Positions 1 to 60,985 of a stretch of DNA of 64,000 nt are shown here, in pieces. A model generated the notes under the pieces. It saw nothing but the letters and a program-made list of their open reading frames with translations, made no database searches and had not been told where the DNA came from. The position numbers and the translations under genes are program-made. The stretch spans positions 7,316,501-7,380,500 of the forward strand of contig OX485805.1 in the NCBI GenBank assembly GCA_950295325.1, written 5' to 3'. Source of the DNA: Polytrichum commune. Its lineage: Eukaryota; Streptophyta; Polytrichopsida; Polytrichales; Polytrichaceae. Within the stretch, counting starts at the first letter, position 1; each line of letters begins with the position of its first letter.

Positions 1-1
1 G

Positions 2-1456
2 ATTGACAAGCGGCTACTTGAGTTGGCATCACCTCGGATTATCCTCGACTACGAAGGCAGAGCTACGCTTGCACAAGCGTTTGCCGTGGTTGAGAGATGT
101 GATCGGGCTCTCTGTCAACATGATGCCACAGACATGGTATCTTGGATGACAGAAAGTACGAAATCAAGAAGAATTGTCACAGCTACTAGTAGTTTAGCTG
201 AGACTCAACCCGTGAAGGAGCAAAGGATTTTGCATTGTTGGGGTTGTGGAGAAGCTGGTCATTCGAAAAATGATCCCAATTGTCCTAAGAAGAAGAAAAC
301 TCAGCCTTTGGGAAAATTAAAACAAAAGATAGAATCAGTAAAGGCAGGGGACAATTCTAAGAAGAGACAATTGAAATGTAACCATTGTGGTGGCACTAAT
401 CACGATGTGGATCATTGTTTCCAACTTCATCCTGAGATGCGGCCTGCCAGTTATGTCACTGGAAAGTCTCCAAGGGAGCAGAGTCTTGAGGCTAAGGTGG
501 CAGAGCTTGAGCAAAAGCTCAAATCTTCTGCATCTTTTGCTCAAATTTCTGAGCCGCATGTGGGTACTGGCACCTCGGGTTCGGACATGTATATGTTTGG
601 AGCAGCTGGAGAGGTGGTGGCGGCGGCTTCTACTCGCTCACAAACATTGGCAGATGCGGTGGCTTCCACGAGTGGTGGTAGCAACGAGGTGCTACATCCT
701 CGCCGTGCCGGACCAGCTGATCAAATTGGTCAAGCATGTTTACCTCTTTCATTTGGATTGGTAGACACCACTGTTGTTGGGGCTAAAAACCCTGTACCTT
801 TGAGAGATGGGGATTCCATCTCGAAGGATGTTACGCAGGCATTGGCATATAAAATTCTCCATATGCCAATTTTCTCGGGTTCAGAATTTATGGCTTCGGA
901 TTTCAAGCCTGCTGCAGTTTTTCATTTAGCTGGGAGAATGTTAGAAGGTAAGGTGGATTTGCCATCCCTTCAAGTATCCCAAGCTGTGGTTGACGTACCT
1001 GTGGCTGAGGAGGTGGAGGACTTAGCCAATTTGCGAGCGAGTCTTGCGGATGCGGCGATCATTGCTTTTGGTAAGCAAACTGATATTCCTCCATCATCAA
1101 TTTCAGCAGTGGATACGTCATTTTCGAATTATGCGGCGGGAGCGGCATACCTTGCAGACATTTCTGCAAGGCCTGCTCGCGAACGGCATAATTTGCAACC
1201 TGGAGTTGTACGGCTGGTGAACGACAAATCCTTGTTTGTCGTTTCACGCACGGATATGCCTACTATCCGTGCTACACCACTGAGAGTTATGATGGATTCC
1301 GGTGCTCAACCGGTTATGATTGGCAAAGGACTTGCTGACAGTCTTGGATTAACGCCAGCAAGCTTGGATCCTTGTCCATTCACTATTGTGACTTCAGTAG
1401 GGGACACTGAACGTGCAACAGGTTACACCAAGGCACCTCTATGCTACCAACTATGA
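2..1456 (+). CDS. gag with retropepsin start, 5' truncated by window edge
   Basis: The frame is open to the left edge, so the true start is outside. Gag forms the virus-like particle and binds element RNA; retropepsin matures the polyprotein. The early residues resemble the end of a gag capsid domain (RATLAQAFAVVERCDRA). Two zinc knuckles follow: one at about 235-290 spaced C-x2-C-x4-H-x6-C (slightly non-canonical) and a canonical C-x2-C-x4-H-x4-C at about 379-421. A short coiled coil (EAKVAELEQKLK) follows the second knuckle. Near the C terminus the aspartic protease motif MMDSGAQPVMIG contains the D-S-G-A catalytic triplet. The frame closes at 1456, while recognisable protease sequence continues in another frame from about 1430, so a frameshift separates the two halves of the protease. 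Confidence 0.85.
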   Translation: MDKRLLELASPRIILDYEGRATLAQAFAVVERCDRALCQHDATDMVSWMTESTKSRRIVTATSSLAETQPVKEQRILHCWGCGEAGHSKNDPNCPKKKKTQPLGKLKQKIESVKAGDNSKKRQLKCNHCGGTNHDVDHCFQLHPEMRPASYVTGKSPREQSLEAKVAELEQKLKSSASFAQISEPHVGTGTSGSDMYMFGAAGEVVAAASTRSQTLADAVASTSGGSNEVLHPRRAGPADQIGQACLPLSFGLVDTTVVGAKNPVPLRDGDSISKDVTQALAYKILHMPIFSGSEFMASDFKPAAVFHLAGRMLEGKVDLPSLQVSQAVVDVPVAEEVEDLANLRASLADAAIIAFGKQTDIPPSSISAVDTSFSNYAAGAAYLADISARPARERHNLQPGVVRLVNDKSLFVVSRTDMPTIRATPLRVMMDSGAQPVMIGKGLADSLGLTPASLDPCPFTIVTSVGDTERATGYTKAPLCYQL

Positions 1457-1706
1457 TATACTTGTTGGTCAGCAAGCTCTTTACCCACTTGGCTTTGGTT
1501 TGGATAATTGGACGGAAGAGGCATGGATTAAACCGGGATGGTCCACTGGAGATGGCAGGAAGGTATTTATTCCCGTCACATTTGCAGCCACTGCTATGAC
1601 TATGGTTGCGGAGGCAATGTTTGGTTGCAGCTGTTCAGTTGCAGATTTGCCTTGTGCTCCAGTTTTATTGGAGGAAACAATGGACTACACTTGTAATACG
1701 GCATAA
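1413..1706 (+). pseudogene. Retropepsin C-terminal part, frame-shifted from gag
   Basis: This frame continues the protease after the frameshift: TNYDILVGQQALYPLGF resembles the conserved 'D-(V/I)-(I/L)-L-G' strand at the C-terminal end of gypsy proteases. It ends at TAA (1704) and a second TAA (1710) follows one codon later, separated by CAA. It is in the same frame as the methyltransferase, which starts immediately downstream. Both TAA codons are one C-to-T change from CAA (Gln), so this could be an eroded Gln stretch linking protease to methyltransferase. No independent start is needed if it was part of a polyprotein. Confidence 0.6.
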
Positions 1707-1712
1707 CAATAA

Positions 1713-2861
1713 TTTGTAGCATCTTTTCAAATTCCTGCTCCACATTTCAAGGATCCACCTCCACCATGGCGAACTCCTAAGGAGTTATCCGACCATTGTC
1801 GACACATTGTAGCGGATTTGAAGCTTGGAGAGGCACCTCCAACTTCATCCTCATTTTCTTTTGCTCAACCCATTCGTTGGCAACCATCACCTGAAGGTAT
1901 TGTCCTTGTGGAGATCTTTGGAGGCATTGGCACAGGTTTGGCGGCAGTGTTGGAAGCTGGAATTACAGTTTGGCGATATATTCATGTGGACAATGGGTAT
2001 GCAGCCAACAGAGCCGTCCGACACCACATCCAACAATTGTTGTTGAGATACCCCGCACAATTGTCAGCCTCTGCCATTCATGGATGTTGTGGTCAACTTC
2101 CTCAAGATGTCACTATGATTAGTGATGAGGATTTGAGAAGGTTGGGCCACGTGGATTTGATTATTGCAGGATGGCCTTGTCAAGGCCATTCGCGGGCAGG
2201 AACTGGCCAAGGATTGGATGATCCTAGGTCTAGTTTGTTTGCGGATTTGATGCGATTGACGCAATGGTGGTTTACCCACCAATCAACTTCGCCAGGGTAC
2301 ATTTTCGAAAATGTACCATTATTGGGTGATACCCGGTACAAAGTGGTGAAGGATGGTGAGTACATTAACCAAATTCTGGGTACTCCAACATTTCTAGATG
2401 CTGCATCTTTGGGATCCTTTGCTCATCGGCCTCGTTGGTTTTGGACCAACTTGGTATCACCTCGGGTTTCAGCGGCGATTTCCCGCATTCCCCGCCTTAT
2501 GGATCGCAAGGTGGATGACATTTTAGATGATCATCGTGTTTCCTTGGCAGTTACCCAGGATGACACCTTGCCATTTGCATTAATTAACAAGGTGGGAATT
2601 CCGAGAGGTGCACTACTTACTTTTGTGACATATCCACAGTCTTTTGCATTTCGATCTCGTGGACCTGGCATGGTTTGGGATTCAAAATCCCAAACTTATG
2701 AGGAGCCTACGGCAGATGAGCGGGAACGCGCCATGGGTTTTCTTACAGGTACCACGGCTGCTCACGGGCTTCAGGAAGGTCAGAGACGTTTCCTATTGGG
2801 GCAAGCTATGGATCTTAATAGCATTGTGTGGATAATTGGAATTTGTCTTGCTGCTCAATAA
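1713..2861 (+). CDS. Cytosine-5 DNA methyltransferase domain inside the retrotransposon
   Basis: A domain of about 350 residues carries the C5-methyltransferase motifs in canonical, non-permuted order. Motif I is FGGIGTG (about 1917-1937). Motif IV is GWPCQGHSRAG, with the catalytic Cys codon at 2178. Motif VI is ENV (2307). A motif VIII-like RPRWFWTN lies near 2430, and IX/X-like ERERAMGF and LLGQAMDLNS are near the end. The short target-recognition region resembles DNMT3-type more than DNMT1/CMT enzymes, although PCQ differs from the PCN usual in DNMT3. Canonical order excludes the rearranged plant DRM class. All key residues are present, so the domain could be active. It shares the frame of RT and lies between protease and RT. 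There is no good ATG near the N terminus, consistent with expression as part of a polyprotein. Family: high confidence; subfamily: uncertain. Confidence 0.88.
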   Translation, partial: FVASFQIPAPHFKDPPPPWRTPKELSDHCRHIVADLKLGEAPPTSSSFSFAQPIRWQPSPEGIVLVEIFGGIGTGLAAVLEAGITVWRYIHVDNGYAANRAVRHHIQQLLLRYPAQLSASAIHGCCGQLPQDVTMISDEDLRRLGHVDLIIAGWPCQGHSRAGTGQGLDDPRSSLFADLMRLTQWWFTHQSTSPGYIFENVPLLGDTRYKVVKDGEYINQILGTPTFLDAASLGSFAHRPRWFWTNLVSPRVSAAISRIPRLMDRKVDDILDDHRVSLAVTQDDTLPFALINKVGIPRGALLTFVTYPQSFAFRSRGPGMVWDSKSQTYEEPTADERERAMGFLTGTTAAHGLQEGQRRFLLGQAMDLNSIVWIIGICLAAQ

Positions 2862-3200
2862 CGTATGGATGACCAATTGCTTACTCTGAGGGCAGAGAAC
2901 AATGGTCAGGGGGCAATGGAGCCGCAATCCAAGGATCACATTGAGGTCAATGACACCGAGGGATTATTTCCTTTGAAACTTCATGTTGCAGAAGAGCTTC
3001 GAGCCCAACGTGTTTTTTCGGCTTTGGACCAAGAGTTTGGGAAGTTGGAGGCCCATAAAATGTTTCTACTTCTATTTCTTGGTGATACTTCATATGTGGG
3101 TAGCTATTTAGCTACACAAACTAATTGTAGTGGAGAGGATACGCATTTGGATTCAAGTACAGATGATGGGGGCAAAGGTGTTGCCCTCTCCACGGACTAG
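2862..3200 (+). CDS. Linker segment between methyltransferase and reverse transcriptase
   Basis: An open stretch of about 110 codons lies in frame with both the methyltransferase and the RT, bounded by TAA (2859) and TAG (3198). It begins near MDDQLLTLRAENNG and is acidic towards the C terminus. I recognise no domain. Its preservation in the same frame as both neighbours supports a single ancestral polyprotein. It could be a tether, a degenerate target-recognition extension, or an RT N-terminal extension. Confidence 0.5.
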   Translation, partial: RMDDQLLTLRAENNGQGAMEPQSKDHIEVNDTEGLFPLKLHVAEELRAQRVFSALDQEFGKLEAHKMFLLLFLGDTSYVGSYLATQTNCSGEDTHLDSSTDDGGKGVALSTD

Positions 3201-6200
3201 CAATCACAGGCTGTGCTGGCACCAAGTGGCAATCCTTCTATGAAGAAGGAAACCACGGAGTTTGACGATTGGCCAATTGAAGTGGGGCCAAAGCTTACTG
3301 GTGCCGAAGCACGAAAGGTACGGGCATTTATTCGCTCTTACCGTAATTGTTTTGCCTTTAGTCTTCATGATCTTGAAGGATATAAAGGTAAACATGTTCG
3401 TATTCAACTTGAGGACGACCACCCTATTTTCAGACGGCCGTACAGACTTAGTACATCTGACAGGTTGGGTGTTCAAACTCGATGTCAAGAGTTATTGGCA
3501 GCGGAATTGATTGAACTCTCCAATGGAGAGTATGCTTGTGCCACGGTTATGCCGTCAAAGAAGGATATCTTTGGCAACTGGACGGAAAAACGGATGTGTG
3601 GTGATTATCGTCCAGTCAACCGCAAGACCAAGTCGGATCGATATCCAATGCCGATGCCGGAGGAGTTGTTTGATGCACTGGGATTTTCTAGAATCTTCAG
3701 CACTCTGGATTTGAGGTCTGGTTATCACCAATTATCTTTGTTGTTAGGTGATCGGGTGAAGACCGCATTTTGGGGAATTGATAAAGATGGCAATGATCAA
3801 CTTTATCATTGGAAATTTTTGCCATTTGGTCTCAAGAATGCACCAGCTGAATTTCAGCGGGTGATGGACCAATTATTGGCTGGTTTGTCGTTTGCTAGAT
3901 GTTACATTGATGATGTTATCATCTTTAGTAATAGTCCACAAGATCATGTGAGACATTTGCAAGCGGTATTTGAACGACTTCAACGGTGGGGACTCCGTTT
4001 ACATCATGGAAAATGTAAGTTTTTCCATGATCAATTGCCCTATTTAGGCCACATGATTGTTCATGGCGGTCTTGGTGTGCAACAGGCGAAGGTGGATGCT
4101 TTGCACAAAATTCCCGCACCTAGTGATGTACCACGGCTTCGTGCATTTCTAGGATTGGCAAATTATTATAGGAGGTTTGTCAAAAACTTTAGTTTGATTG
4201 CCAAACCTCTTACCATTCTCACGGGGAAAGACCAACCATGGATTTGGAGTCGGGAACAACAACATGCATTTGATACATTGAAGCAGAGGCTCGGTTCAGC
4301 GCCAGTGCTTCGACGCCCGGATGTGTCTAGAGCTTTTCAATTGCACACGGATTGGAGTGCAGTGGGATTGGGAGCGGTATTGACACAGAAAGATGAAGAA
4401 GGAAAGGAATATGTGGTGGCTTATGCATCTAGAAGCAATAATAGTGCTGAATCTAATTATTCTTCTTATGAAGGCGAGGCCTTGGCGGCCGTTTGGGCCA
4501 TTGCACATTTTCGACCTTATTTGTATGGGCAAAAGTTTACTTTGGTGACTGATCATCAGCCTTTAAAATGGCTTATGGAATCAGATAAGCTCACCGGGAA
4601 ACTTGCTAGGTGGGCATTGTTACTTCAGGAATATGATTTTGAAGTTGTTCACCGAGCAAGAATTGCCAACTTGGATGCAGACGGATTGTCTCGCAATCCA
4701 AGTCTTTCAGATGAGGATTTAACTGGAGCCAGGTGGCATGGAGATTGTGATCGTGAGGCAGTGCCGGGTTGGCATGCTGCCACATATCTCACAATGATGT
4801 CGGGATTGGCTGCTGAGATCCTTGTGGAAGAACAAGATGAGGAGGTTGATAAATCTCTCGTTGTTAGTGATGTGATGGAAGACCAGGCGGTCTTGCACAA
4901 ACTTCAACAAGGGATATTTCCTCTTGGACTATCTGCTATGGAGCGAGATAGAGTTAGTCACCGGATAACAAGGTTTCGTTGGGCAAACAGCTTGTTATTT
5001 CGTGTGTGGCCAAACGGAACGAGGCGCATCGTTCCAAGGCCAGATCAAAGAGCTTCTTTGGTGCGGCAAGTGCACGAGGAGCTTGGACATTTTGGAGTGC
5101 GAAGGACGCACTCTATGTTGCGCAACCAATATTGGTGGACTGGTATGTATCAACAGGTTGCCACTTATATTTCTAGGTGTGAAGTATGTGACCGGGTCAG
5201 GTCAAGTTTTAATACTTTATCACCTCAACTTCAGTCTTTACCTATTATGGGCTTGGGATATCGTTGGTCTTTGGATTTTGCCGGACCGCTTACTATCACT
5301 CCACGAGGGGCAAAGTATGTACTTGTGATGGTGGAGCATTTTAGTAAGTGGATTGAACTCGTGGCTCTTCCGCAAAATTCCTCAGAATTGGCGGCTATGG
5401 CATTTCTTGATCGAGTTTTGGCACGGTTTGGAGCACCTGCAGAGGTGTTGACGGATCAAGGGAGAGAATTTTTTGGATCTTTCGAAGCTTTGTGTACCAA
5501 GGCTTTGATTGATCATCGGACAACTTCCAGAGATCACCCTGAGGCAGATGGCTTAGCTGAACGAGTTGTTCAGACGGTTAAGCGCGGTTTGCAGAAGTAT
5601 GGATTGCTTCATGGCAACCATCGCGATTGGGACTTGATGTTACCATGGATAGCAATGGGTTATCGTTTCAACAGGCAAGCATCTTTGGCATCCTATAGTC
5701 CTTACCAACTCTTGTATGGACGGGAACCAATTTTATCTAGCTCGGTGCGAGAGAAATTGGCTCCCGTGGTAAACTTGGATGATCCAGATGTTTGGGCTCA
5801 ATGTCTTCATGACCGAGCAGCGTTCTTCCAAAAGGCCATGCCTATGGCTATGGATAACTTAAATATTGCTCAACATCGTGATACATTACGGTATGCCCGG
5901 ATCCGCAGTGGAGCTTATCGACCTCAGGTTCGTAGATTTTCCAAAGGGAATTATGTTTACTTGCAACGGGAGGCGCCTACGACATTGGATGTCAAGGCTG
6001 GGCGCACGATTTTGCGGGTAAAAGATGTCTTGCCAAGTGGTATATTATTGCTTGAAGGCAAGGATGGACGGGAATGTTGTGAGCATTCAAAGAATTGTGC
6101 TCCATGTCACCTTCCCATCGACGGCTCTGTGCATCCCGAGTTGGCGGTTGTACCACAGGGTCTGCCTTGTTATGTTTGTGGAGAGAAGAAAGGAGCTGCA

Positions 6201-6344
6201 ACAATGTTATTGTGCGACCAATGTCAACGTGGATGGCACATGGCATGTTTGACACCTCCCCTTTTGACTCTTCCTTCTGGCAACTGGGTTTGTCCTCGTT
6301 GTCGGAAAGCTTCTCATTCCGTGGCCGTTAATGGTCATGATTGA
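3201..6344 (+). CDS. gypsy pol: reverse transcriptase, RNase H, integrase and C-terminal PHD finger
   Basis: A continuous frame of more than 1,040 codons ends with TGA. RT has KRMCGDYRPVN, the FSTLDLRSGYHQ block, LPFGLKNAPAEFQR and the catalytic YIDD (3903-3914). RNase H shows HTDWS, YEGEALA and TDHQPLKW with their acidic residues. The integrase HHCC zinc site spans HEELGHFG...CEVCDRV. The core DDE residues sit in SLDFAG, LTDQGREFFG and GLAERVVQ. A GPY/F-like C-terminal domain follows. The last about 50 residues are a PHD finger (about 6159-6306): CYVCG, LLCDQC, GWHMAC, GNWVCPRC give Cys4-His-Cys3. Chromoviruses carry a chromodomain at this position; a PHD finger would be a different histone-tail reader, with a likely role in choosing integration sites (inference). 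All catalytic residues appear intact. Confidence 0.93.
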   Translation, partial: QSQAVLAPSGNPSMKKETTEFDDWPIEVGPKLTGAEARKVRAFIRSYRNCFAFSLHDLEGYKGKHVRIQLEDDHPIFRRPYRLSTSDRLGVQTRCQELLAAELIELSNGEYACATVMPSKKDIFGNWTEKRMCGDYRPVNRKTKSDRYPMPMPEELFDALGFSRIFSTLDLRSGYHQLSLLLGDRVKTAFWGIDKDGNDQLYHWKFLPFGLKNAPAEFQRVMDQLLAGLSFARCYIDDVIIFSNSPQDHVRHLQAVFERLQRWGLRLHHGKCKFFHDQLPYLGHMIVHGGLGVQQAKVDALHKIPAPSDVPRLRAFLGLANYYRRFVKNFSLIAKPLTILTGKDQPWIWSREQQHAFDTLKQRLGSAPVLRRPDVSRAFQLHTDWSAVGLGAVLTQKDEEGKEYVVAYASRSNNSAESNYSSYEGEALAAVWAIAHFRPYLYGQKFTLVTDHQPLKWLMESDKLTGKLARWALLLQEYDFEVVHRARIANLDADGLSRNPSLSDEDLTGARWHGDCDREAVPGWHAATYLTMMSGLAAEILVEEQDEEVDKSLVVSDVMEDQAVLHKLQQGIFPLGLSAMERDRVSHRITRFRWANSLLFRVWPNGTRRIVPRPDQRASLVRQVHEELGHFGVRRTHSMLRNQYWWTGMYQQVATYISRCEVCDRVRSSFNTLSPQLQSLPIMGLGYRWSLDFAGPLTITPRGAKYVLVMVEHFSKWIELVALPQNSSELAAMAFLDRVLARFGAPAEVLTDQGREFFGSFEALCTKALIDHRTTSRDHPEADGLAERVVQTVKRGLQKYGLLHGNHRDWDLMLPWIAMGYRFNRQASLASYSPYQLLYGREPILSSSVREKLAPVVNLDDPDVWAQCLHDRAAFFQKAMPMAMDNLNIAQHRDTLRYARIRSGAYRPQVRRFSKGNYVYLQREAPTTLDVKAGRTILRVKDVLPSGILLLEGKDGRECCEHSKNCAPCHLPIDGSVHPELAVVPQGLPCYVCGEKKGAATMLLCDQCQRGWHMACLTPPLLTLPSGNWVCPRCRKASHSVAVNGHD

Positions 6345-6884
6345 GAATTTTGTGGATGTTTACCACATGTTTTAGTGGTGAAGTTGTTATTTAGTTGGTT
6401 GGAAATTTTATGGAATTAAGATCACATTGAAAGAGTTATCCAAGAATTCAACATTAATTGTTGAAGGCGATTAAGGATGGGGCTCACATTGCACCCAGCC
6501 TACAGTTCTTGGATTATTTTGTCAATCACGAGTTTAATTCCTTCGATTACTACTACCCAATTAAATATGTATAGATGTAGCAACAACTTCATCATGTTCA
6601 ACATCTCTACCGATGAGTGTGTTTGTTCCTAGCCGATTGGAGGGGCTCGTTATCTGCTAGTGGAAGCACTTGAAGAGGTGGTTGTTTAGCATTTTAGTTT
6701 GCTATTTTATTTTGCTAATTGATGTTGACAACGACACTCGATCTGTTGTGTTTAACGATCTTAGTTTACACGACATGCATCTTAGGCCCATAATTTTGTC
6801 CTTCATTGAATGTGTCCATGTGAGTGGATCATAGATTAATATTTGAATCAAATTGTGTTGCTCAAATCGACTATATAGAATAAT
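6345..6884. other. Non-coding flank downstream of the retrotransposon
   Basis: This is AT-rich sequence without a convincing ORF. It probably contains the element's 3' untranslated region and part of its 3' LTR, but no copy of the 5' LTR is in the window for comparison. Purine-rich runs that could be polypurine tracts lie near 6472-6482 and 6671-6680; neither is followed by a clear TG..CA LTR that I can delimit. Confidence 0.3.
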
Positions 6885-13911: not shown

Positions 13912-16179
13912 TCAACCATCTAACTCCACCTCTTCTAGTGATAATGCCCTACGCTTGTTGGTTCTTGTGCCAATTTTCCAAGATTCAAAAACACTATCCC
14001 AATCCATGAATTCAACTCCTAACCCATTTAGACTAACCCTCATTAAAGCATCTAGTGTGTCAAGGTTGAGTCTAGTTCTCCTTTCACTCTTAACCCAATT
14101 TTGCTTTGAAAAACCACGCTCACAAACAACAGTGCTAGTTGGGATCACAAGTATGGCTTGCCATAGCGACATCATAGTTGGCCAATTAATCATGAACTCC
14201 CGGTCATTGCCACAAAAAACCCAAGCTTCTTGCATACTTCGGCGTTCACAAACGGAACATAACATCTCCACGAATTCTAGCAATTCCGCATTGCATTGAT
14301 TAACAAGGTCATCGCTCCAACGGAAATGTGTCACCAACCGGTTCAACCATTGTTCCGTTAATGTCCCTCTGTCCAATTCATCTACGGGATAGTGCTTCGG
14401 GCTAAAAAGCCGGGCCGCATTGAAAATGGACAAGTCAGGAAATCGATCATTGAGTGAATCGATGATCTTCTGCACATACTGCCTCCCCAACATGATGCAT
14501 GCCTCCAATGAGCCTCCTACGTCACACTCGGGCATGGAATCATAATGCAAGATATGCATTTTTTCACACCCAAAACTATCAACATACAATATCTGCCCAT
14601 TGGGTACCACCTCGCGGAGAAACTTTCCTAGGTGTTTGGTTGTCAGGCCAAAACTTACACCCAGATAGTGTCTACGAAACAAGCTGATTGTTACATCAAT
14701 CGTAGAAGCTATGCTAGTGATATCTACAAGATCAAACTGAAACTTGCGATTGACCTTATTCAACTCTGATAATATATCAGCTAGCATGTGAATGAAAAAT
14801 TGGAACTGAAGAGAAGTTAGATCCTTGTACCATGTGGGTTCTTCAACCTCCCAAATTTCTAAAATTGCAGGCATACAAAATACCAATCTCTCCATGACCA
14901 AGCCACGGGATAACCATCTCACCGAATGGATCTGTAAAGCTGCACGGGACTCTTCACGGAATGCAAGCAATAATTTCTCCAAAACTCCACGACGAATTAC
15001 TGATTTACCCAACCACTCGTACACCTTATTGGCCACCCGATCAATAAATCCCAAGCACGGAAATTCATCGTTCGCATCCTTTACAGCTAGCGCCTCACGA
15101 TGAGCAATACAATGTGTTCCAACAAGATGAGGTACCAATACACGAAGTCGAGCCACCACACCTTGGTGCACTCCAGTCATACAAGATGCACCATCAGTAG
15201 CTATAGCCACTAGTTTCTGTAAATCCAATCCAAGTCTGACCAACAAACTTTTGATGCATTCAAACATAACCTCCCCAGTTCCGCGTGAGAGAGGCATGAG
15301 CTCCACAAACTGTACACATGGCGAATGAAAACCTCCTCCCGTCAAATAGCAAATGTATACTATTAGATGAGGTTCACATGTACGATCAGTTGATTCATCA
15401 ATCAATGTTGAGTACATAGAGCTGCGTTTCACTTCATGAACAAGGTTGGAACTTAAATGTTGAGATATGGCATCCAAAAAGCCCATTGCTGCAGTGACAT
15501 TTGTATAAGACGAATACTCTGTATTGGTAGGCATATCCGGAGTAGAGAGGAGCATATGAATCTTGCATTGTTCAACATAATGTAACAATGGTAGATCATT
15601 ATAAACAACAAAATACAAGAGTTTCATGACAATGAGAATTCTGCCCTTTTCACGATCCACCATATTCTGAAGACCTGGTTCAATTGGCGTAACTGGTCCT
15701 CCAGTCCTAGGATAATGCCTTGCCATCCATCGTGTGTAGCTCCATTTGTGATCATCAGATTTCTCATGTTGTTTAATTGCAGAGAGTTGAATAGTTGAAC
15801 ATCCACTCCCACCCCATGATTTAGATCCCCTTCCACCAAGCTTGAATTCCTCACAAGCTTCGCACTTCATCACTCCAGTAACTGGACCATGAGGAGGTTT
15901 GGACCAATACAACCAACGGCGGCCAATCTTCCATTTATTGTTGAATTTTCGTATCAAAGCTCTAGATGGATTTGGCAACAAAGTCACTTCAGTTGCATCT
16001 GGTGTGTTTTCGATATCAACCTCCACGTCCATATTACAGTCTTCTTCGTTGATCGCCGTGGACTCTCTAGAGTCGGATCTAGCAAAACAAAAGTTGAGAT
16101 CCAGTTGACGTGCATCCCGCGATGGATGACCCCCCCCCCTCTTCGTGAACTTGAGGCCATCGAATTTTGGACACACCAA
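13912..16179 (-). CDS. hAT transposase (ZNF862/TTF-type zinc finger plus hAT dimerisation domain)
   Basis: An uninterrupted frame of about 755 codons ends in TGA. The N-terminal part has a zinc-finger-like block around CEACEEFKLGGRGSKSWGG, similar in layout to the TTF-type/ZNF862-like finger. A hAT RNase H-like core follows, with acidic positions in LIDESTDRTC and IATDGASCMTG, then THCIAHREALAVK. The C terminus has the hAT dimerisation signature TSTVVCERGFSKQNWVKSE and LDTLDALMRV. No ATG opens the first 40 codons. Either translation starts at the Met in CNMDVEVDIE or an upstream exon supplies the start. The lack of stops over 2.2 kb suggests recent activity or domestication; the flanking terminal repeats favour a recent transposon. 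Confidence 0.85.
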   Translation of the reverse strand: MVCPKFDGLKFTKRGGGHPSRDARQLDLNFCFARSDSRESTAINEEDCNMDVEVDIENTPDATEVTLLPNPSRALIRKFNNKWKIGRRWLYWSKPPHGPVTGVMKCEACEEFKLGGRGSKSWGGSGCSTIQLSAIKQHEKSDDHKWSYTRWMARHYPRTGGPVTPIEPGLQNMVDREKGRILIVMKLLYFVVYNDLPLLHYVEQCKIHMLLSTPDMPTNTEYSSYTNVTAAMGFLDAISQHLSSNLVHEVKRSSMYSTLIDESTDRTCEPHLIVYICYLTGGGFHSPCVQFVELMPLSRGTGEVMFECIKSLLVRLGLDLQKLVAIATDGASCMTGVHQGVVARLRVLVPHLVGTHCIAHREALAVKDANDEFPCLGFIDRVANKVYEWLGKSVIRRGVLEKLLLAFREESRAALQIHSVRWLSRGLVMERLVFCMPAILEIWEVEEPTWYKDLTSLQFQFFIHMLADILSELNKVNRKFQFDLVDITSIASTIDVTISLFRRHYLGVSFGLTTKHLGKFLREVVPNGQILYVDSFGCEKMHILHYDSMPECDVGGSLEACIMLGRQYVQKIIDSLNDRFPDLSIFNAARLFSPKHYPVDELDRGTLTEQWLNRLVTHFRWSDDLVNQCNAELLEFVEMLCSVCERRSMQEAWVFCGNDREFMINWPTMMSLWQAILVIPTSTVVCERGFSKQNWVKSERRTRLNLDTLDALMRVSLNGLGVEFMDWDSVFESWKIGTRTNKRRALSLEEVELDG

Positions 16180-17959
16180 CCAAACAACATAATCATTGCA
16201 TTTTTTATCTCATTGTAGATCACATTAGTTTTTGTAGTGTATTCATAAACATTTATGACCTATAGATCCTAGTAAATCAGTTTACAAATGCACATCAATT
16301 TGTTCAATAAAGGTAGCCAAACTTAAATGTCCGTAGTTAACCAAAGAAGTAACATGAGATTATTGTCAAAGTCAATTAGTACCTTGCTAATCCAACCTCT
16401 ATATAGGTATTGTCCTCAAACATGCCACCTCAGTGGTGACGGTGTAGCTGATCTCAAGCCTGGAAACGGTAAAAGAAAAAACAAGAGAAAAAAGATGAAT
16501 TATATTACAAACTGCACCCCACAACTGAAGCACTTCACTGACTGTACAACCTCTCAACCTTGAAGGTTTTTCAATTTTCATCTCTCCACAACCTACAGCT
16601 GTGACTCCAAACGATTTAATAAAATGCAGCACTCAAGGGAGAAGAACACCAAGCCAAAATCCACGGGTAGATCACTCCATTGTCAAGTTGAACACCACGT
16701 GCGACCAAAAAAAATCTTCTTTTGGTAAGTTGCACCACCAAAATGGGTCAAAATGTTATCAAATTTTTTTCATGAGTAGATATACACAGTACCTATGACA
16801 TAGTTAAAAGTGGTAACTAAATTTGATGATTTGTTTTTTTCATAAAACATACCATTTCTAACTAGAATGACACATAATTGAACTAAAAAAATTACTAAAA
16901 AAATTTAAGATGACTAAAAATTTCAAAAGAGTATACAAAAGATACTATCAATGGTTATGTATATGTAGAAAAAATATCATAAATTTTAAAATTATATATG
17001 GCATGTAATATAGGGGTAGCAAACTTTGTCCGCACGTGGTGTCAACTTGACAATGAAGTGACCTCCCCGTGCCAAAATCTCCCCTCACCAGTGAAACCTA
17101 AGCTTTCAAGACTACCTACTGCCTCTAGTCAATCAATAATCTAACTCTAAGCTGCAGTGACACACAATATCATTGATTGCTCACCACCGTCTTCAGTTTT
17201 GGATTCTTCTGCAAACATTGGCATTGCAACAAACAATGAACACAATTGGCTTCAAAGAAAATGGACAATAATAATATTTCTGCTCATTCAAAAAGGGGAG
17301 GCATGCAGAAAGTTCATGTTCCAAACATCCTTTACTTGTCCTCTTCGAATGACACAAGAGAAAGCCTGTTAACACTACAAAATATAGAGTCCTGAGGTCA
17401 TTTTGGCCCACATAATTGATCCTCAATCTATTCATTATAAAGACAGATACCCAAAAACACCCAAGAATCTCTTTCTTTTTTATAACCATAACCTCAAGTC
17501 TCAAGTATGTACTATGGATCTCTAAGAGCAAATATGTGAGCACATCCTACAGTAAACAACCTTTGTATAATAAACATGTAGTCTCAGATACGTATCCAAG
17601 AGTGGACTTCAAGTGAGTAATGTATTCACTCCACATGACTTACCAATCGTCTCAAATGAAGATGGCACCTCGCAGCCACAAGGTAAAATCTCTTTCAGAA
17701 TGTGCTCTGCACCCCCCATGCCAACGTGTACCTGATAAGAACCGTGTGTTTTTCATCAGAAGCATTGATGTTGATCGGCAAGTTACAACTGTAATTGCTT
17801 CTGATGTAAGTCACTCCCCCACTCTGCAAAGTTCACATGAAAAGTTCCACCCACACAAAAGCAAAAATAAAGTGCAGGAAATAACTTGGAGAAAGAAAGA
17901 TGGTGGTCTAACAGGTAACGATCCATTGTGAGATCAATTTTGTAGGGTAGTGAAGGTAC

Positions 17960-24843: not shown

Positions 24844-25818
24844 TGTCGCAACCCTTGCTAGCCCCCCCTTGACAATCTTGCCAATTTTCAATTCTAGCAA
24901 AGGTTACGAGTCGCTAACCCTTCACATTCCGCCATGCTAATGGATAGCTCCTCTTACCCCGGACCAATAGTTCATAGGAGGGAACCAACCCTCCTACTTT
25001 GCTTTCGGGACTCACCCCTTAATCGGTAACCCATTTCCCCAATGTGGACTTCCATCCATGGAAGTCCAATCCTATGTTGATCATCGCGTTGCCGGAGCAA
25101 CACTACAACAACCCGAACCATACTAGGCAACTATGGCCTCACAATAGGCCAAAGCCCATGGAGGCCTTGCCGTTCGGCCTCGGGTGGGTGAGGCCACACC
25201 ACCTCACCCATATAAGCCTCTAGGACTTCACGCGGGGCCCCTACCCCACCGTCAACCAACCTCTTGTCTCCCTACCAAGAGTTGGGGCCAAGTGGACATT
25301 TTCCTTTAGCTGCTGGGCCTAGAACCCCCCAGCAGCTTCAGACCATCATAACTTCCTTGTATGATGTCTGATCATAACAACCAACCACTCCATCCTCATC
25401 TACGCTTCACGTAGATGCCGATGGACTCCTCACTTGCTCCATTCGAGCAAGTCTTGAGGAAGTTATGCCTGTTTGAACCTTGGCAGTCCCGGGAATCCCT
25501 CCCAGGCACTGCTGTACCAGGGCGCTGTCCCGGGACAGCACCCCACTCAAATGGCCATAACTCCTAGCTCACACCTCCGATTGAGGTGTTCTTGAGCATT
25601 CTAGAATCACCACGCCATGAGCTACGCATAGCTCATGGCCTTACCCTTGTGCCTCCTAGTCTTCGTGGGTGGGAGGCGTTCCCAACGCCCGGGGCCCTCA
25701 CCCACACTAGGATCACTTGGGCCCTCTCACCAACGGCGCCACAAGTCCCGGGTGTCACTCCGGGGTCCCCCTTGTGCCCATGGTGTTTCGGCCACTCCTC
25801 ATGGAGAGGTGCGCGACA
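24844..25818 (-). repeat. Left LTR (3' LTR of the minus-strand element), 975 bp
   Basis: Starts TGTCGCAACCC and ends GGTGCGCGACA. It matches 30939-31913 in length and, as far as can be read by eye, in every base. A purine-rich tract on the element strand, GGTGGGGGTGAG (complement of 25819-25830), lies immediately inside and fits a polypurine tract. Confidence 0.92.
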
Positions 25819-30938: not shown

Positions 30939-31913
30939 TGTCGCAACCCTTGCTAGCCCCCCCTTGACAATCTTGCCAATTTTCAATTCTAGCAAAGGTT
31001 ACGAGTCGCTAACCCTTCACATTCCGCCATGCTAATGGATAGCTCCTCTTACCCCGGACCAATAGTTCATAGGAGGGAACCAACCCTCCTACTTTGCTTT
31101 CGGGACTCACCCCTTAATCGGTAACCCATTTCCCCAATGTGGACTTCCATCCATGGAAGTCCAATCCTATGTTGATCATCGCGTTGCCGGAGCAACACTA
31201 CAACAACCCGAACCATACTAGGCAACTATGGCCTCACAATAGGCCAAAGCCCATGGAGGCCTTGCCGTTCGGCCTCGGGTGGGTGAGGCCACACCACCTC
31301 ACCCATATAAGCCTCTAGGACTTCACGCGGGGCCCCTACCCCACCGTCAACCAACCTCTTGTCTCCCTACCAAGAGTTGGGGCCAAGTGGACATTTTCCT
31401 TTAGCTGCTGGGCCTAGAACCCCCCAGCAGCTTCAGACCATCATAACTTCCTTGTATGATGTCTGATCATAACAACCAACCACTCCATCCTCATCTACGC
31501 TTCACGTAGATGCCGATGGACTCCTCACTTGCTCCATTCGAGCAAGTCTTGAGGAAGTTATGCCTGTTTGAACCTTGGCAGTCCCGGGAATCCCTCCCAG
31601 GCACTGCTGTACCAGGGCGCTGTCCCGGGACAGCACCCCACTCAAATGGCCATAACTCCTAGCTCACACCTCCGATTGAGGTGTTCTTGAGCATTCTAGA
31701 ATCACCACGCCATGAGCTACGCATAGCTCATGGCCTTACCCTTGTGCCTCCTAGTCTTCGTGGGTGGGAGGCGTTCCCAACGCCCGGGGCCCTCACCCAC
31801 ACTAGGATCACTTGGGCCCTCTCACCAACGGCGCCACAAGTCCCGGGTGTCACTCCGGGGTCCCCCTTGTGCCCATGGTGTTTCGGCCACTCCTCATGGA
31901 GAGGTGCGCGACA
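30939..31913 (-). repeat. Right LTR (5' LTR of the minus-strand element), 975 bp
   Basis: Identical by eye to the left LTR, with the same TGTCGC start and GCGACA end. It is followed by the target duplication TCCTC at 31914-31918. Read on the minus strand, it should contain the element's promoter; I did not identify a TATA box with confidence. Confidence 0.92.
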
Positions 31914-35701: not shown

Positions 35702-37423
35702 ATGGCGAAGCTTTTGGAATTGTTGTGTGAGCACCTATCAAGGTTTTGGAATTTTATTGGAACTTGCTTTTGGACAAATGAGCAAAGAGGAATCATTGAC
35801 AAATATGATGTTGGAGATTTACATCAAAGAGGAACAATTGACAAATATGATGTTAGAGATTTACTGCAATGGCAGGAGGAAGAAATATGTAGACTTGAAG
35901 GGATTTCAAATGGAAATGAAGTATTGAATAAGAAGCAATGTAAGAATCTTCTCACCAAGCTTAAAAAAATTGAAGTATGTGTTCGGGAGATGATCAGGTC
36001 GAGTAGTGAGGTCCAAGAGCTCGGTGTTGCAATTGAGGAGCTATGTTGCATTACACAAAAATTTGGAGTTGTGATGAGTGAATGCGGAAATCAAAATCAA
36101 AGTCAAGCAATTGCATTCCAAATAAATAACAAGGAGGCTTTTCGAGAACTTGTGTCCGATTTGAGGTGTTGTTGGGATGTGATACTTGAGATGCATTCAA
36201 CAAGCCATCCATAGTCGCAACCTTTCATGTCTACCATTGACTTAGACATGCCGACCTTGAAAGATATTGAGGACGACGAAAAATTTCTTCAAGAAAGTCT
36301 CAAAGATGGTAGCAAGTATGAATGGAGAGAACATTTATGGCAAAGATTGGAGGACTTGCAACTTGACGGTGGAGAACTCGACAGTGTGAAGGTTCCAATT
36401 GTCATTGATTCATTGAAACCAGAACTTTTGAAACAAATTGGGAAAAGAGGATATGGTGTTGTGTATGAATCAATGTGGTTGGGATTTAAATGTGCAACAA
36501 AGATTTTGCCAATTCCAGATGGAATCCAAAATGACCGCAAAGAGGTTGGTATTTTGGCAGGCTTGAGCCATCCGAATCTCATCAAATTCATCTATTGTGG
36601 AGTTGGTGGGAGCATAGACGAGTTGTGTTCTTCGACTCTTGGGAATTCACCAAGTGTTGAATATTCAACATTTGAAGCTCCTTTTAAGAATTTGTATTTG
36701 GTGATGGAGTTCATGGACATGAGCTTGAGTGGCATGTTGGAGAAGCAGTCCAAACCGTTATCATATCTTCTTGCAATTGATATCATGCATCAAATTGCAA
36801 GTGGCATGTGTTATCTTCATGACATGCATGTTGCTCATCTTGATTTGAAGCCGGACAATGTGCTCATGAGACCCAATTCCATCGAAGGAGGAGAATTGAA
36901 TTCTAGGCGATATTTGGTCAAGTTGGCTGACTATGGTACTTCCAACATTGAGGTTCCAAGCAAAGTTCCCGAGGGAAAACCATGCTATCGTGTTGGTACA
37001 CCTAGATACATGGCACCAGAGATAATTGATCGAAACCTTGAACCTCATGCAAGTCTATTTCAAGCTGATGTATGGTCCTTTGCTATGACATGTTCAGAGA
37101 TCTTGTCACAAAGTGCTCCATTTGGCAACCTTCATGTGAAAGCCGACGACATTTTGATAAAAATTGAGGAATTTGACAGGCCGCAATTGCCAATGAATTG
37201 TGAAGAGCTTACGAGGTTGATCGAGGAATGTTGGGTGGAGGATCCTTTACAAAGGTTGACATTTTCGAAAAATTGTGAAAAATTGATTGATTTGAAGAAA
37301 ATGTTTTTGAAAGGATCATATTTGGCAAGCCTACGTCCCAAGTTTGAAAAGGATGGAGCTTCGCTCCAAAAGAAGTCAAGAATTGAGAAGGCAAGGAAGG
37401 CCAAGGAGAAACATGTTATAGAG
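35702..37423 (+). pseudogene. Kinase-NB-ARC-LRR resistance-type gene, exon 1 (N-terminal helical region plus protein kinase)
   Basis: ATG at 35702 opens MAKLLELLCEHLSRFW. A helical region follows, and then one in-frame TAG (36212-36214, SHP*SQPFMSTIDLD); the frame continues on both sides. The kinase domain has a glycine loop (IGKRGYGVVYES), the ATP-binding Lys context (CATKIL), HLDLKPDN (HRD changed to HLD, catalytic Asp kept), DYG instead of DFG, and RYMAPEI. The exon ends HVIE at a GTATGT donor in phase 0. Kinase fused to NB-ARC-LRR is the PNL class described in mosses, an intracellular immune receptor. The TAG is one base from CAG (Gln). If translation instead starts at the Met after it (36227), the kinase-NB-ARC part could still be made. 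Confidence 0.8.
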
Positions 37424-37554
37424 GTATGTACCATTTTGGTGTTTAATAGTCTAATTATAGCTTGTTATTTCTATTGATTTGGATTAAATGCAGGTCTTTG
37501 AGGGTGTAATATTGAATGAGAATTATGTTCTTATTGCATGCGCTATTTATGTAG

Positions 37555-38628
37555 GTGAATGAGGCAACCATGCAAGTGAACAACATGGTATTTGGTCTTG
37601 AACAAAACCTTACAAAAGTCAAAGATCGTCTCAAGGAAGTGAGGATTTTGGGTGTCATTGGCATGGGTGGAATTGGGAAAACTACATTGGCAAATCACAT
37701 ATTTCATGAATTGAAGTCCACATACAATGCATCATATTTTGCCAAAGATTTGAAGAATAAAAGTGGTTCACTTGGAATTATATGTGACATGTTAAAAGAC
37801 TTTGGAGAAGATCCTAAAAGCTTGCCAACAAATTTGGTGGATGCACAAAACAAGTTGAAGCAATTCATGGTTGGTAAGAAGGTTCTCATAATATTGGACG
37901 ACATAAGGGATGAAGATCAACTAGATCATCTTCTCTGTCCGGATATTTTGAGGGACAACGCGGGCATCACATTGATTATGACAACCCGCCATTGGGACAA
38001 GATTAAACATCGTGTCGGGGAGAATGACAAGATAGAGGTTGAGAAATTGGATGGAAATGCAGCAAAGGAGCTTTTTATCCTTCATTCATGTGGGTCCGGA
38101 GGTTCTTTACCAACTGGATTTTGTGATATAGGAGGAAGAATAGTGGAAGCTTGCAATGGCTTGCCTTTAAGCCTAGGAGTATTGGGTGCATTTTTGCGGG
38201 ATAAATGGAGGTTGCGATGTTGGGAGCGAGCATTACGAAGAATGAAAAGGGGAAGATGTTTGGATGGTGACGAAGAATTTGAAGACACAAAGCTTTGGAG
38301 CACATTGAAGATAAGCTTTGATGGATTGGGAACGGATGAAAAAAATATGTTTTTGGACATAGCATGCTTCTTTTGCAAGGATGTGTGGCCGGAAGGCATG
38401 GCAATAGATAGAGCCTTGCACGTGTGGACCGTGAATGGTATCCTCCCAACACAATCCTTCAATATGTTGATAGAGCGGTCATTGGTAAATGTTGACGAAT
38501 ATGGACACATAGAAATGCACGACCAACTACGTGACATGGGACGAATGATTGTGGAAAAGGATGGAGAATACTTGGGCACTCGAGTTTGGAGCGTGGACTT
38601 GAGTTCTTCAACTCAATTTTCAAAGGAG
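37555..38628 (+). CDS. Kinase-NB-ARC-LRR gene, exon 2 (NB-ARC domain)
   Basis: The exon begins after a TAG acceptor, in phase 0 with exon 1 (VNEATMQVNNMVFGLEQ), and ends SKE at a GTATGA donor, also phase 0. NB-ARC motifs are complete: P-loop GMGGIGKTT, kinase-2 KVLIILDDI, RNBS-B TLIMTTR, GLPLSL, RNBS-D FLDIACFF and MHDQLRDMG (MHD). The Asp after kinase-2 and the FLDIACFF motif resemble the TIR-type NB-ARC lineage. This is the ATP/ADP switch that controls receptor activation. No stop or frameshift is present in this exon. Confidence 0.88.
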
Positions 38629-38886
38629 GTATGAAATGTAAAGAACGATTTTTTTTACATTGTTTGTTCCATGTTGTAAAGTCTATGCAAACAAAGCGTG
38701 TAATTCAATTTGGATTTTATTGGAACATTAGTTTAATGTTAATGATGGTCAAGATGTTCATAGAGAAATTAGATTCTTGTGTAATCTTTGCAATGATTTG
38801 CTTTATTCCATATTTTTGCAAAATAATATATGATTCTATTGAGACTCTATTTGTTTTTGATATAATGTTTCCATCTTGCAAAGCAG

Positions 38887-41426
38887 GGCAATAAGAAAGT
38901 TGAAGGTATATTGTACAAAATATCGCAATGCCATTTACAAGGTCAAAACTATTGTTTAGACATGGATCTAAGCAATTTTTGATTATTGACAATTCATAAT
39001 CATACCAACAATGCATCAACCGACTTCCGACTATTCAAAGATCCTCATTTAAACAACCAAGAACATTCATGTCAATTGAAGGCCATTTTTATAAATGGTA
39101 ACTTTCAACAACTTCCTAAGGAACTGTGGGAATTGCATTCTTTGAATAGCTTTGATATAGAGGGATTGAGAAAGCTCAAAGCATTGCATAAGGGACTTGG
39201 AAAATTGACTTCCTTGACACACTTGAATTTGTCAAGATGTTCCAGTTTGACAACATTACCCGAGGGACTTGGAAAATTGACTTCCTTGACACACTTGAAT
39301 TTGTCAAGATGTTCCCGTTTGACAACATTACCCGAGGGACTTGGAAAATTGACTTCCTTGACACACTTGAATTTGTCAAGATGTTCCCGTTTGACAACAT
39401 TACCCGAGGGACTTGGAAAGTTGACTTCCTTGACACACTTGAATTTGTCAAGATGTTCCCGTTTGACAACATTACCCGAGGGACTTGGAAACCTCACCTC
39501 TTTGACGGCGATTAATTTGGGGGGATGTTCAAGCTTGACAACATTACCCGAGGGATTTGAAAACCTCACTTCTTTGACGGAGATTGATTTGCAAGGATGG
39601 AGAAGTTTGACAACATTACCCGAGGGACTTGGAAACCTCACTTCTTTGACGGAGATTGATTTGCAAGGATGGAGAAGTTTGACAACATTACCCGAGGGAC
39701 TTGGAAACCTCACTTCTTTGACGGAGATTGATTTGTTCAAATGTTCTAGCTTGACAACATTACCCGAGGGACTTGGAAACCTCACTTCTTTGACGAAGAT
39801 TAATTTGGGGGGATGTTCAAGCTTGACAACATTACCCGATGGACTTGGAAACCTCACTTCTTTGACGGAGATTGATTTGCGGGAATGTTCTAGGTTGACA
39901 ACATTACCCAAGGAACTTGGAAACCTCACTTCTTTGACGAAGATTAGTTTGGATGGATGTTGGAGATTGACAACATTACCTGTGGGACTTGGAAACCTCA
40001 CTTCTTTGGTGAAGATTGATTTGGGGGGATGTTGGAGCTTGACAACATTACCTATGGGACTTGGAAACCTCACTTCTTTGACGAAGATTAATTTGAGGGG
40101 ATGTATAGAGAACATTACCCAAGGGACTTGGAAAGCTCACTTCTTTGACGGAGATTGATTTGCATAAATGTTCAAGTTTGACAAGATTACCCAAGGGACT
40201 TGGAAAGCTCACTTCTTTGACGGAGATTGATTTGCATAAATGTTCAAGTTTGACAAGATTACCCAAGGGACTTGGAAAGCTCACTTCTTTGACAGAGATT
40301 GATTTGCATAAATGTTCAAGTTTGACAAGATTACCCAAGGGACTTGGAAAGCTCACTTCTTTGACGAAGATTAATTTGGGGGAATGTTCAAGTTTGAGAA
40401 CATTGCCGGAGGGACTTGCAAAGCTCACTTCTTTGACGGAGATTGATTTGCAGGGATGTTGGAGCTTGACAACATTACCCGTGGGACTTGGAAAGCTCAT
40501 TTCTTTAACGAAGATTAATTTGGGGGAATGCTCAAATTTGACAACATTACCCGATGGACTTGGAAACCTCACTTCTTTGACGAAGATTAATTTGCGGGAA
40601 TGTTCTAGGTTGACAACATTACCCGAGGAACTTGGAAACCTCACTTCTTTGACGAAGATTAATTTGGAGGGATGTTCAAGCTTGACAACATTACCCGAGG
40701 GACTTGGAAACCTCACTTCTTTGACGAAGATTAATTTGGGGGAATGTTCAAGCTTGATAACATTACCCGAGGGACTTGGAAACCTCACTTCTTTGACGAA
40801 GATTAATTTGGGGGGATGTTCAAGCTTGACAACATTACCCGAGGGACTTGGAAACCTCACTTCTTTGACGGAGATTAATTTGGAAGAATGTTCAAGCTTG
40901 ATAACATTACCCGAGGGACTTGGAAACCTCACTTCGTGGAATTGATCAAGCTTGATAACCTTACCCGAGGGACTTGGAAACTTCAGTTCTTTGACGATGA
41001 TTGGTTTGGGGGGATGTTCAAGCTTGACTTCATTACGCGAGGCACTTGGAAGCCTTTGTTCAATGACAAAGCTGAAATTGACGGGATGGTCAAGCTTGAC
41101 AACCGTATCCGAAGGACTTGGAAACCTTACTTCTTTGAGGGAGGTTGAGTTGGGGGGGTTGTTCAAGGTTGGCAATATTATTGGAGGGATTTGGAAACCT
41201 CACTTCTTTGACGAAGCTTGATTTGCGTGATTGTTCAAGCGTGACAATGCTACCTGAGGAACTTGGAAAGGACACTTATTTGATGGAGTTTCAATGCAGG
41301 GGATGTTCAAGCTTGACAAAATTAGCGGAAGGACTTAGAAACCTCACTTCTTTGACGAAGATTGATTTGGGGGGATGTACAAGCTTGGTAACATTACCCC
41401 AGGGACATATGTGCTTACTCTCTTGA
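38887..41426 (+). pseudogene. Kinase-NB-ARC-LRR gene, exon 3 (LRR array, disrupted)
   Basis: After a GCAG acceptor the exon starts NKKVEGILYKISQC, the conserved linker after NB-ARC in this class. An in-frame TGA follows at 38980-38982. From about 39190 to 41400 there are roughly 30 leucine-rich repeats of 24 residues (LTSLTEIDLxGCSSLTTLPE-type), encoded by near-identical 72-bp units. The frame breaks near 40110, where a unit has lost 5 bp, at a TGA at 40943-40945 next to a deletion, and again around 41145. The repeats would form the ligand- or effector-sensing solenoid. With two stops and two frameshifts this exon is probably non-functional in this copy. Confidence 0.85.
39193..41400 (+). repeat. 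About 30 tandem 72-bp units encoding LRRs
   Basis: Units contain TTGACAACATTACCCGAGGG and ACTTGGAAA(C/G)CTCACTTC with few changes between neighbours. Several adjacent units, for example four from about 39196 and three from about 40140, are almost identical, indicating recent duplication. The antisense strand also stays open for over 300 codons here, simply because the repeated unit has no antisense stop in one frame. Confidence 0.9.
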
Positions 41427-57487: not shown

Positions 57488-57539
57488 TGCGTTGTTCTCT
57501 ACCTGCAAAATAAATGTACTAGTTAATTAAGGAGACAAC

Positions 57540-57754
57540 GGATTACCCAAACCTAACCTCATCTCTAACCTCACATCAGATTACACATACCTAACCTCAT
57601 ATCAGAGCTCACATCAGATTACACAAACCTAACCTCATATCTAACCTCACAGTAGATTACACATACCTAACCTCATATCTGACCTCACATCAGATTACAC
57701 AAACCTAACCTCATATCTAACCTCACATCAGATTACACATACATAACGTCATAT
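57540..57754. repeat. Satellite A block upstream of the ParB-like gene
   Basis: Five to six copies of the 38-bp ACCTCATATCTAACCTCACA unit directly next to the first coding exon of the ParB-like gene, grading into satellite B. Confidence 0.85.
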
Positions 57755-60380: not shown

Positions 60381-60985
60381 ATCAGATTACACAAACCTAG
60401 CCTCATATCTAACGTCACATTAGATTACACATACCTAACCTCATATCTAACCTCACATCTGATTACATATACCTAACCTCATATCTAACCTCACATCTGA
60501 TTACACATACCTAACCTCATATCTAACCTCACATCTGATTACACATACTTAACCTCATATCTAACCTCACATCTGATTACACATACATAACCTCTTATCT
60601 AACCTCACATCAGATTACCTTTACATACCTCATATCTAACCTCACAGCAGATTACACATACATAACCTCCTATCTGACCTCATATCAGAATACACTTTTT
60701 ACACACAAATTTGTTCCAAAAAAAGTGTCTCGGTCCTGAGACACTCACACTCACAACTAGAAAAAAATGTCAGACCTATGTAACCCCACATCAGATTACA
60801 CATACCTAACCTCATATCTAACCTCACATCTGATTACACATACCTAACCTCATATCTAACCTCACATCAGATTACACACACATAACCTCATATCTGGCCT
60901 CACATCAGATTACACATACATAACCTCCTATCTGACCTCATATCATAATACACTTTTTACACACAAATCTATTCCAACAAGAAAC
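60381..60985. repeat. Mixed satellite A and B
   Basis: Mainly 38-bp satellite A units (CCTCATATCTAACCTCACAT) with one more satellite B dyad near 60726. The array ends at about 60985. Confidence 0.85.

Follow-up and report, generated by a model that had tools for sequence, protein, structure and literature searches.

Why would a transposon carry its host's kind of silencing enzyme, and is that enzyme a lasting part of the element or a gene caught up in it by accident? The question is raised by a stretch of 64,000 nucleotides from the moss Polytrichum commune (the window; C3:7316501-7380500 of a 408-Mb assembly in 64 contigs, seven of them, C1-C7, large at 77.9 to 42.1 Mb). At its left end lies one decayed copy of a Ty3/Gypsy-type retrotransposon encoding zinc-knuckle Gag, protease, a C5-methyltransferase (MTase), RT-RNaseH, integrase, and a PHD finger. 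Both Pfam domains and motifs bear out the sequence-only reading of this DNA as a Gypsy-type element with a cytosine-5 methyltransferase of its own. The account favored here, judged likely when taken as a whole with its proposed mechanism, is of a multicopy Ty3/Gypsy-type element that keeps a DNMT3-type C5-MTase in its Gag-side polyprotein.

The coding parts all lie on the plus strand. The C-terminal part of Gag and the protease occupy 2-1456, with zinc knuckles at 236-283 and 377-418 and the protease motif DSGA at 1295-1306; the sole Pfam match in this frame is an aspartyl protease, below the cut-off. The frame is broken near its 3' end, and the remainder of the protease lies in the MTase frame at 1401-1706, where relatives P0121 and P0131 read on past the premature stop of the window copy. 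The DNMT3-like C5 cytosine methyltransferase follows at 1713-2861 (382 codons from stop to stop; PF00145 DNA_methylase, E 7.8e-11) with motifs I-X in linear order and the catalytic PCQ and ENV intact. Individual motifs are located at 1917-1937 (FGGIGTG), 2172-2183 (WPCQ), 2307-2315 (ENV), 2424-2435 (HRPR), and 2793-2813 (LLGQAMD). A weakly constrained linker, the C-terminal part of ORF1, runs from 2862 to 3200 and closes with TAG, followed by CAATCA. ORF2 (3201-6344) encodes RT (YIDD at 3903-3914), RNaseH, integrase (H2C2 and rve, D-D-34-E), and a C-terminal PHD finger (~6168-6302), with Pfam matches to RVT_1, RNaseH, Integrase_H2C2, rve, and PHD. The element had been taken to span 1-6344, an extent that has to be revised at both ends: its A1 repeat starts 2.5 kb upstream of the window, and its B repeat (6669-6775, plus strand) ends at 6775. 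The window copy terminates there, and most other copies read continue as B1-GC-A2-B2. There is very little doubt about this anatomy.

The placement of the MTase between protease and RT, in the RT reading frame, holds for position and frame; the continuity implied by it does not, as TAA at 2859-2861 and TAG at 3198-3200 intervene. The protease frame break (1401-1456) and the extra stops at 1704 and 1710 mark the window copy as decayed. The stop at 2859 is present in the window copy and its near-identical neighbor; other copies, where ORF1 is open, read across it. P0121 and P0131 are open across 1704 and 1710, and P0121 is open across 2859 as well and ends exactly at the position of the window TAG. 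A nonstandard genetic code was considered as the reason for the in-frame stops and rejected because relatives and other copies are open at 1704, 1710, and 2859 with the standard code. The TAG before RT is the only in-frame stop that recurs among copies. The neighbor (C3:7299321-7308226; L018, L009) stands head to head with the window copy about 6 kb upstream, is 99.8% identical over 7.07 kb with an MTase match of 100%, and reflects either recent duplication in inverted orientation or an artifact of assembly.

Among solved structures, DNMT3A comes closest to the MTase (E 1e-7), and bacterial enzymes and chain 4onj ("DNA methyltransferase"), a plant DRM, rank lower at 4e-4 or worse. The motif order I-IV-VI-VIII-IX-X is linear, unlike that of DRM, and by similarity the enzyme is predicted to belong with the DNMT3-like family. 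In an alignment of the window sequence with 33 relatives (34 sequences), W154, P155, and Q157 do not vary, and C156 and E199-N200-V201 are almost invariant. The motif IV catalytic residue, covered by 95 of 122 matched homologues, is Cys in 91, Tyr in three, and Ser in one. The likeness to animal DNMT3A/3B consists of the best solved-structure match and the linear motif order, but the E value is only 1e-7 and no regulatory domains accompany the catalytic domain in the element; PWWP and ADD are the domains named for the animal enzymes (PMC12344493).

The sequence-only reading noted that a methyltransferase block confined to this single copy would point to a chance insertion. That explanation, an MTase gene landing in one copy, is refuted, with next to no probability left to it, by at least 108 MTase copies scored in the host genome (from 599 candidates; identity 86-100%) and by relatives in five named streptophyte genera. 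At least 44 RT copies were scored from 3891 candidates, and in a comparison of the listed matches, an MTase match lies at the expected distance in at least 35 of these 44, and in two of these it spans part of the MTase. One of the remaining nine is readable (L011), and in it another LTR-type repeat, the one that also stands at window 24844 and 30767, is nested at the MTase site. The commonest MTase-side frame is 1386 aa, in 22 of 108 rows (matches being read on through internal stops), and the RT frame is 1047 aa in 40 of the 44 scored rows.

How the two coding frames are joined bears on how much of the enzyme would be made. The junction sequence TAGCAATCA is present in all 20 fetched loci, the window copy and its inverted, nearly identical neighbor among them, and the context UAG-CAA-UCA is a full match to the readthrough motif UAG_CAR_YYA defined in PMC3542737. 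Extended flanks are available for 10 copies, and in nine of them the MTase-bearing frame terminates at TAG-CAA-TCA; the tenth has an earlier stop. From stop to stop, the full ORF1 is 1386 aa and ORF2 is 1047 aa; both are open in some copies, not all. The MTase sits in ORF1 with Gag and protease, on the Gag side of the stop. Conservation of a stop among young copies is weak evidence for readthrough, and, with the motif match, readthrough of the UAG to give a longer product is considered probable.

Relatives give a mixed picture of this junction. In two groups, the MTase protein stops at a common alignment position, 95 to 134 residues beyond the motif X match. The last residues are STD or SMD in one (P0121-P0123, P0136, P0171, P0176, P0178) and ATK in the other (P0124, P0125, P0127, P0128, P0134, P0154), and a shared stop would give such a common end; the ends of other relatives' MTase proteins may be contig ends. 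In P0011, P0026, P0041, P0043, and P0047, the MTase is fused to RT. Both states are found in Marchantia, where P0195, P0196, and P0203 stop before RT and gene models P0087, P0089, P0198, P0199, and P0206 continue into RT or integrase; these models may reflect splicing across a stop.

The repeats are split rather than ordinary LTRs, which were rejected as a description given a 5' end that lacks B. All 10 copies with fetched 5' flank have the layout A1 (~0.44 kb)-coding-B1 (~0.105 kb)-A2-B2, with no B before A1. The copies start with TGTCACG and end with ACGACA, and A1 and A2 are 94.6-99.8% identical within copies, which suggests recent insertion. Among 12 copies with both ends, target duplications are exact over 4 bp in 10, match at three of four positions in one, and are absent in the window copy; with the window copy excluded, the chance of at least 10 exact 4-bp duplications in 11 is 9e-24. 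Such a layout could in principle be accidental, with ordinary LTR copies losing the 5' B by deletion after insertion, and some copies, including that of the window, are indeed rearranged at an end. This is very unlikely, since the 5' B is missing at the same base in 10 of 10 extended-flank copies and exact 4-bp duplications lie directly outside A1 and B2 in 10 of 12. Among copies with the 3' end covered, the B-GC-A joint is present in 14 of 18, and in one of these a base directly flanking the palindrome described below is altered. Three (L027, L032, L033) stop after one B, like the window copy, and B is absent from L034.

At the internal B1/A2 joint, an extra GC stands between ACGACA and TGTCACG and makes the palindrome GACAGCTGTC, whose core is GACA-GC-TGTC. 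The central GC is missing from the integrated ends. If an integrase cut both strands of this palindrome at CA|GC, the resulting ends would equal processed retroviral ends. The palindrome may thus point to integration from a circle-like joint, a model drawn from the joint sequence alone and given an even chance of being right. No tyrosine recombinase domain was found in the scanned frames of the window element, which encodes an rve integrase instead. A search for a tRNA-iMet primer site near A1 found none in 10 copies with up to three mismatches, which counts against the mechanism proposed below.

The mechanism proposed from these features runs as follows. ORF1 (Gag-PR-MTase) would be the main product, and UAG readthrough would yield a longer product that adds RT-RH-IN-PHD; the protease would then free the parts, so that the MTase would be packed into particles at Gag-like amounts. 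B plus A would act as one LTR, and reverse transcription would lead to a circle or circle-like molecule with the joint B-GC-A. The integrase would cut the palindrome on both strands to give two CA-3'OH ends, each with a 5' overhang of two bases, and insertion with a 4-bp stagger would produce A1-coding-B1-A2-B2. In the same particle, the MTase would methylate the double-stranded cDNA before integration, and the new copy would enter the genome already methylated.

Whether the MTase has been under selection can be asked of the copies. The selection set holds 19 sequences (the window copy, which stands for L017, and L019-L036; L017 and L018 were excluded from these runs) and 18 for RT-RH and IN, where the rearranged copy L034 was dropped because of segment identities of 0.51 (RT) and 0.42 (IN), and for PHD, where a gap filter removed one sequence. 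Shared variants are those found in at least two copies, and counts are small. For the MTase, pN/pS is 0.43 pooled, 0.29 for shared variants (16 S, 15 N), and 0.77 for singletons. RT-RH gives 0.19, 0.10, and 0.38 in the same order, and IN gives 0.26, 0.22, and 0.42. The PHD finger stands at 0.56, 0.29 (3 S, 3 N), and 1.17, and the linker at 0.92, 0.63 (4 S, 9 N), and 1.95. Singletons should largely reflect decay after insertion, and shared variants should for the most part be older. On that view, the MTase was probably under constraint while the family was active, though more weakly than RT. Purifying selection on the MTase, a check that the sequence-only reading had put forward, is accordingly seen in both the shared-variant value (0.29, on small counts) and the pooled one (0.43). 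C-to-T variants in the copies are found at 1.93% of CG and 1.95% of CHG versus 1.28% of CHH sites, an excess that is expected from host methylation and does not need the element's own enzyme.

The same data bear on a rival reading in which selection on the MTase is weak or relaxed and a successful family carries it along as a passenger. Its pooled pN/pS is more than twice that of RT-RH and many copies carry stops, as this reading would predict. The shared-variant ratio (small counts again), a motif IV Cys kept in 91 of 95 covering homologues, the named ones among them from charophytes and bryophytes, and MTase and RT trees in which no fork well supported in both conflicts all speak against it, and the passenger reading is disfavored as improbable.

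The relatives were drawn from the best 120 of 3537 matches in an RT search and from 74 and 27 proteins in two MTase searches. Named sources of MTase-bearing proteins are Marchantia polymorpha, Calypogeia fissa, Sphagnum (two species), Closterium, and Klebsormidium nitens; Riccia is matched by RT only. One MTase match (P0122) is labeled as a bacterial metagenome-assembled genome (MAG), most likely through contamination. Many relatives show a PHD motif or a precomputed PHD domain. In a midpoint-rooted RT tree of 98 rows, a clade of 83 (SH-aLRT 99) contains the window element, 18 further rows with an MTase match in the same protein (short, weak ones in P0092 and P0115), and 64 undecidable rows, and none is shown to lack it; K. 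nitens P0047 is a member of this clade. The other group of 15 holds all 10 long-N-terminus rows without MTase, two MTase-bearing long-branch rows (P0082, P0101), and three undecidable ones. In paired trees of 16 rows, the four best-supported MTase forks are all recovered in the RT tree; most deep MTase forks are weak, and one RT fork with good support (P0041+P0026+P0058) has no counterpart in the MTase tree.

A further check put forward by the sequence-only reading was to look for the order gag-PR-MTase-RT-IN in other streptophyte genomes. MTase-bearing relatives are found in streptophytes. In seven relatives (P0054, P0062, P0064, P0090, P0215, P0216, P0217), the order differs and the MTase follows RT-RNaseH. 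Six of these form one MTase clade, and P0054 is too short for the tree. For P0062 and P0215, Pfam does not report PF00145, and the MTase call comes from the analysis's own profile (E 2e-74 and 6e-86). The MTase-bearing Gypsy lineage appears, from these comparisons, to be old and widespread in charophytes, liverworts, and mosses, which turns a case from one alga into a lineage that includes the laboratory model Marchantia and makes the reason why a transposon carries its host's silencing enzyme testable in a land plant. A scan of viral contigs found no relatives of the element, and a literature search (titles and abstract starts, with subscription journals thinly covered) found no report of this kind of element in bryophytes. 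Marchantia proteins P0195-P0201, P0203, P0206, P0207, P0209, and P0210 carry hypothetical-protein names in public records, one also being called DNA (cytosine-5) methyltransferase, and such element proteins could be mistaken for host DNMT3; P0122 is entered there as a bacterial methyltransferase.

Several roles can be proposed for the enzyme. Methylation of the element's own cDNA is the likeliest of the roles considered, held tentatively at slightly under an even chance. It may instead act elsewhere, on host chromatin at the target site together with the PHD finger, or on RNA, damping or directing host silencing. A PHD finger follows the integrase in the window element and is found in many relatives, an enzyme made at Gag level could act in trans, and an RNA substrate was raised by de Mendoza and colleagues for their LINE family (PMC5890265); yet DNMT3-like motifs in linear order fit DNA and no tie is seen between MTase and PHD finger, which leaves action elsewhere a possible but distinctly less likely role than cDNA methylation. 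A third role is a long shot. Full-layout copies retain a second, internal integrase cutting site, and on this basis the MTase could mark the duplicate site (B1-GC-A2) or the cDNA circle; the integrase would then use one joint and would not cut itself or resident copies. If true, this would be self-protection like the modification half of restriction-modification and would explain repeated MTase uptake by retroelements with DIRS-type repeats (DIRS with an adenine MTase, SymbioDIRS-Dnmt3, KnitGypsy-Dnmt3, and the moss element), although the LINE-borne Symbiodinium MTases do not fit.

Elements of the DIRS order are not known to make target duplications. The moss element has a DDE integrase and 4-bp duplications, whereas DIRS, PAT-like, Ngaro, and VIPER elements rely on a tyrosine recombinase (PMC6681497). 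Ngaro, PAT-like, and VIPER elements, like the moss element, open with A1 and close with B1-A2-B2, and some DIRS elements carry a methyltransferase (PMC6681497). In the moss element, a Gypsy-type DDE integrase works with split repeats and proper target duplications, and the joint sequence may point to a specific integration intermediate. SymbioDIRS-Dnmt3 is similar in its DNMT3-type MTase, A-coding-B-A-B repeats, and two domain orders, but has a tyrosine recombinase and is described as an independent acquisition (PMC5890265).

Of known elements, KnitGypsy-Dnmt3 of Klebsormidium nitens (PMC5890265) comes closest, and we infer that P0047 is this element itself. The same paper bears out the statement of the sequence-only reading that retrotransposon-borne methyltransferases are reported in dinoflagellates and a charophyte alga, DNMT3 in streptophyte and dinoflagellate retrotransposons is also cited as previously reported in PMC12344493, and the suggestion that a bryophyte-like genome would extend the charophyte case with a Gypsy-type element of this kind proved right. 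The two elements share Gypsy coding domains, a DNMT3-like unrearranged MTase in many copies, constraint on that MTase, and a DIRS-like A-coding-B-A-B layout (Fig. 4 legend of PMC5890265; 10 of 10 moss copies). They differ in that the K. nitens MTase lies in the Pol ORF and that of the moss in ORF1, on the Gag side of the TAG (PMC5890265). The Ka/Ks of the K. nitens MTase is below 0.2 (PMC5890265), and constraint in the moss is weaker. The term PHD is absent from the main text of PMC5890265, whereas the moss element has a PHD finger, and the sections of that paper on the Gypsy element make no mention of target duplications or of a B-GC-A palindrome. The KnitGypsy-Dnmt3 domain gave no methylation in yeast, a result its authors call inconclusive (PMC5890265). 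Different from KnitGypsy-Dnmt3, or newly resolved, are the Gag-side MTase, the combination of split repeats with a DDE integrase and 4-bp duplications, the B1|A2 palindrome, and the post-RNaseH MTase of some relatives.

The rest of the window holds further mobile DNA and one candidate gene. Identical 975-bp direct repeats at 24844-25818 and 30939-31913 are probably the LTRs of another recent retrotransposon, and the repeat nested in L011 is 96% similar to them. On the minus strand, 13912-16209 is an open frame of 765 aa with a zinc finger and a hAT dimerization domain, a hAT transposase. Tandem arrays at 57535-60980 and 53293-55490 have ~106-bp and related shorter periods, with sequence common to both. 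On the plus strand, neighboring frames at 36215-40155 encode a protein kinase, NB-ARC, and LRRs, and the LRRs, a long and regular array of 24-residue repeats, extend to ~41400. Together (36215-41400) they make up a predicted resistance-type gene of the kinase-NB-LRR class, which is typical of mosses.
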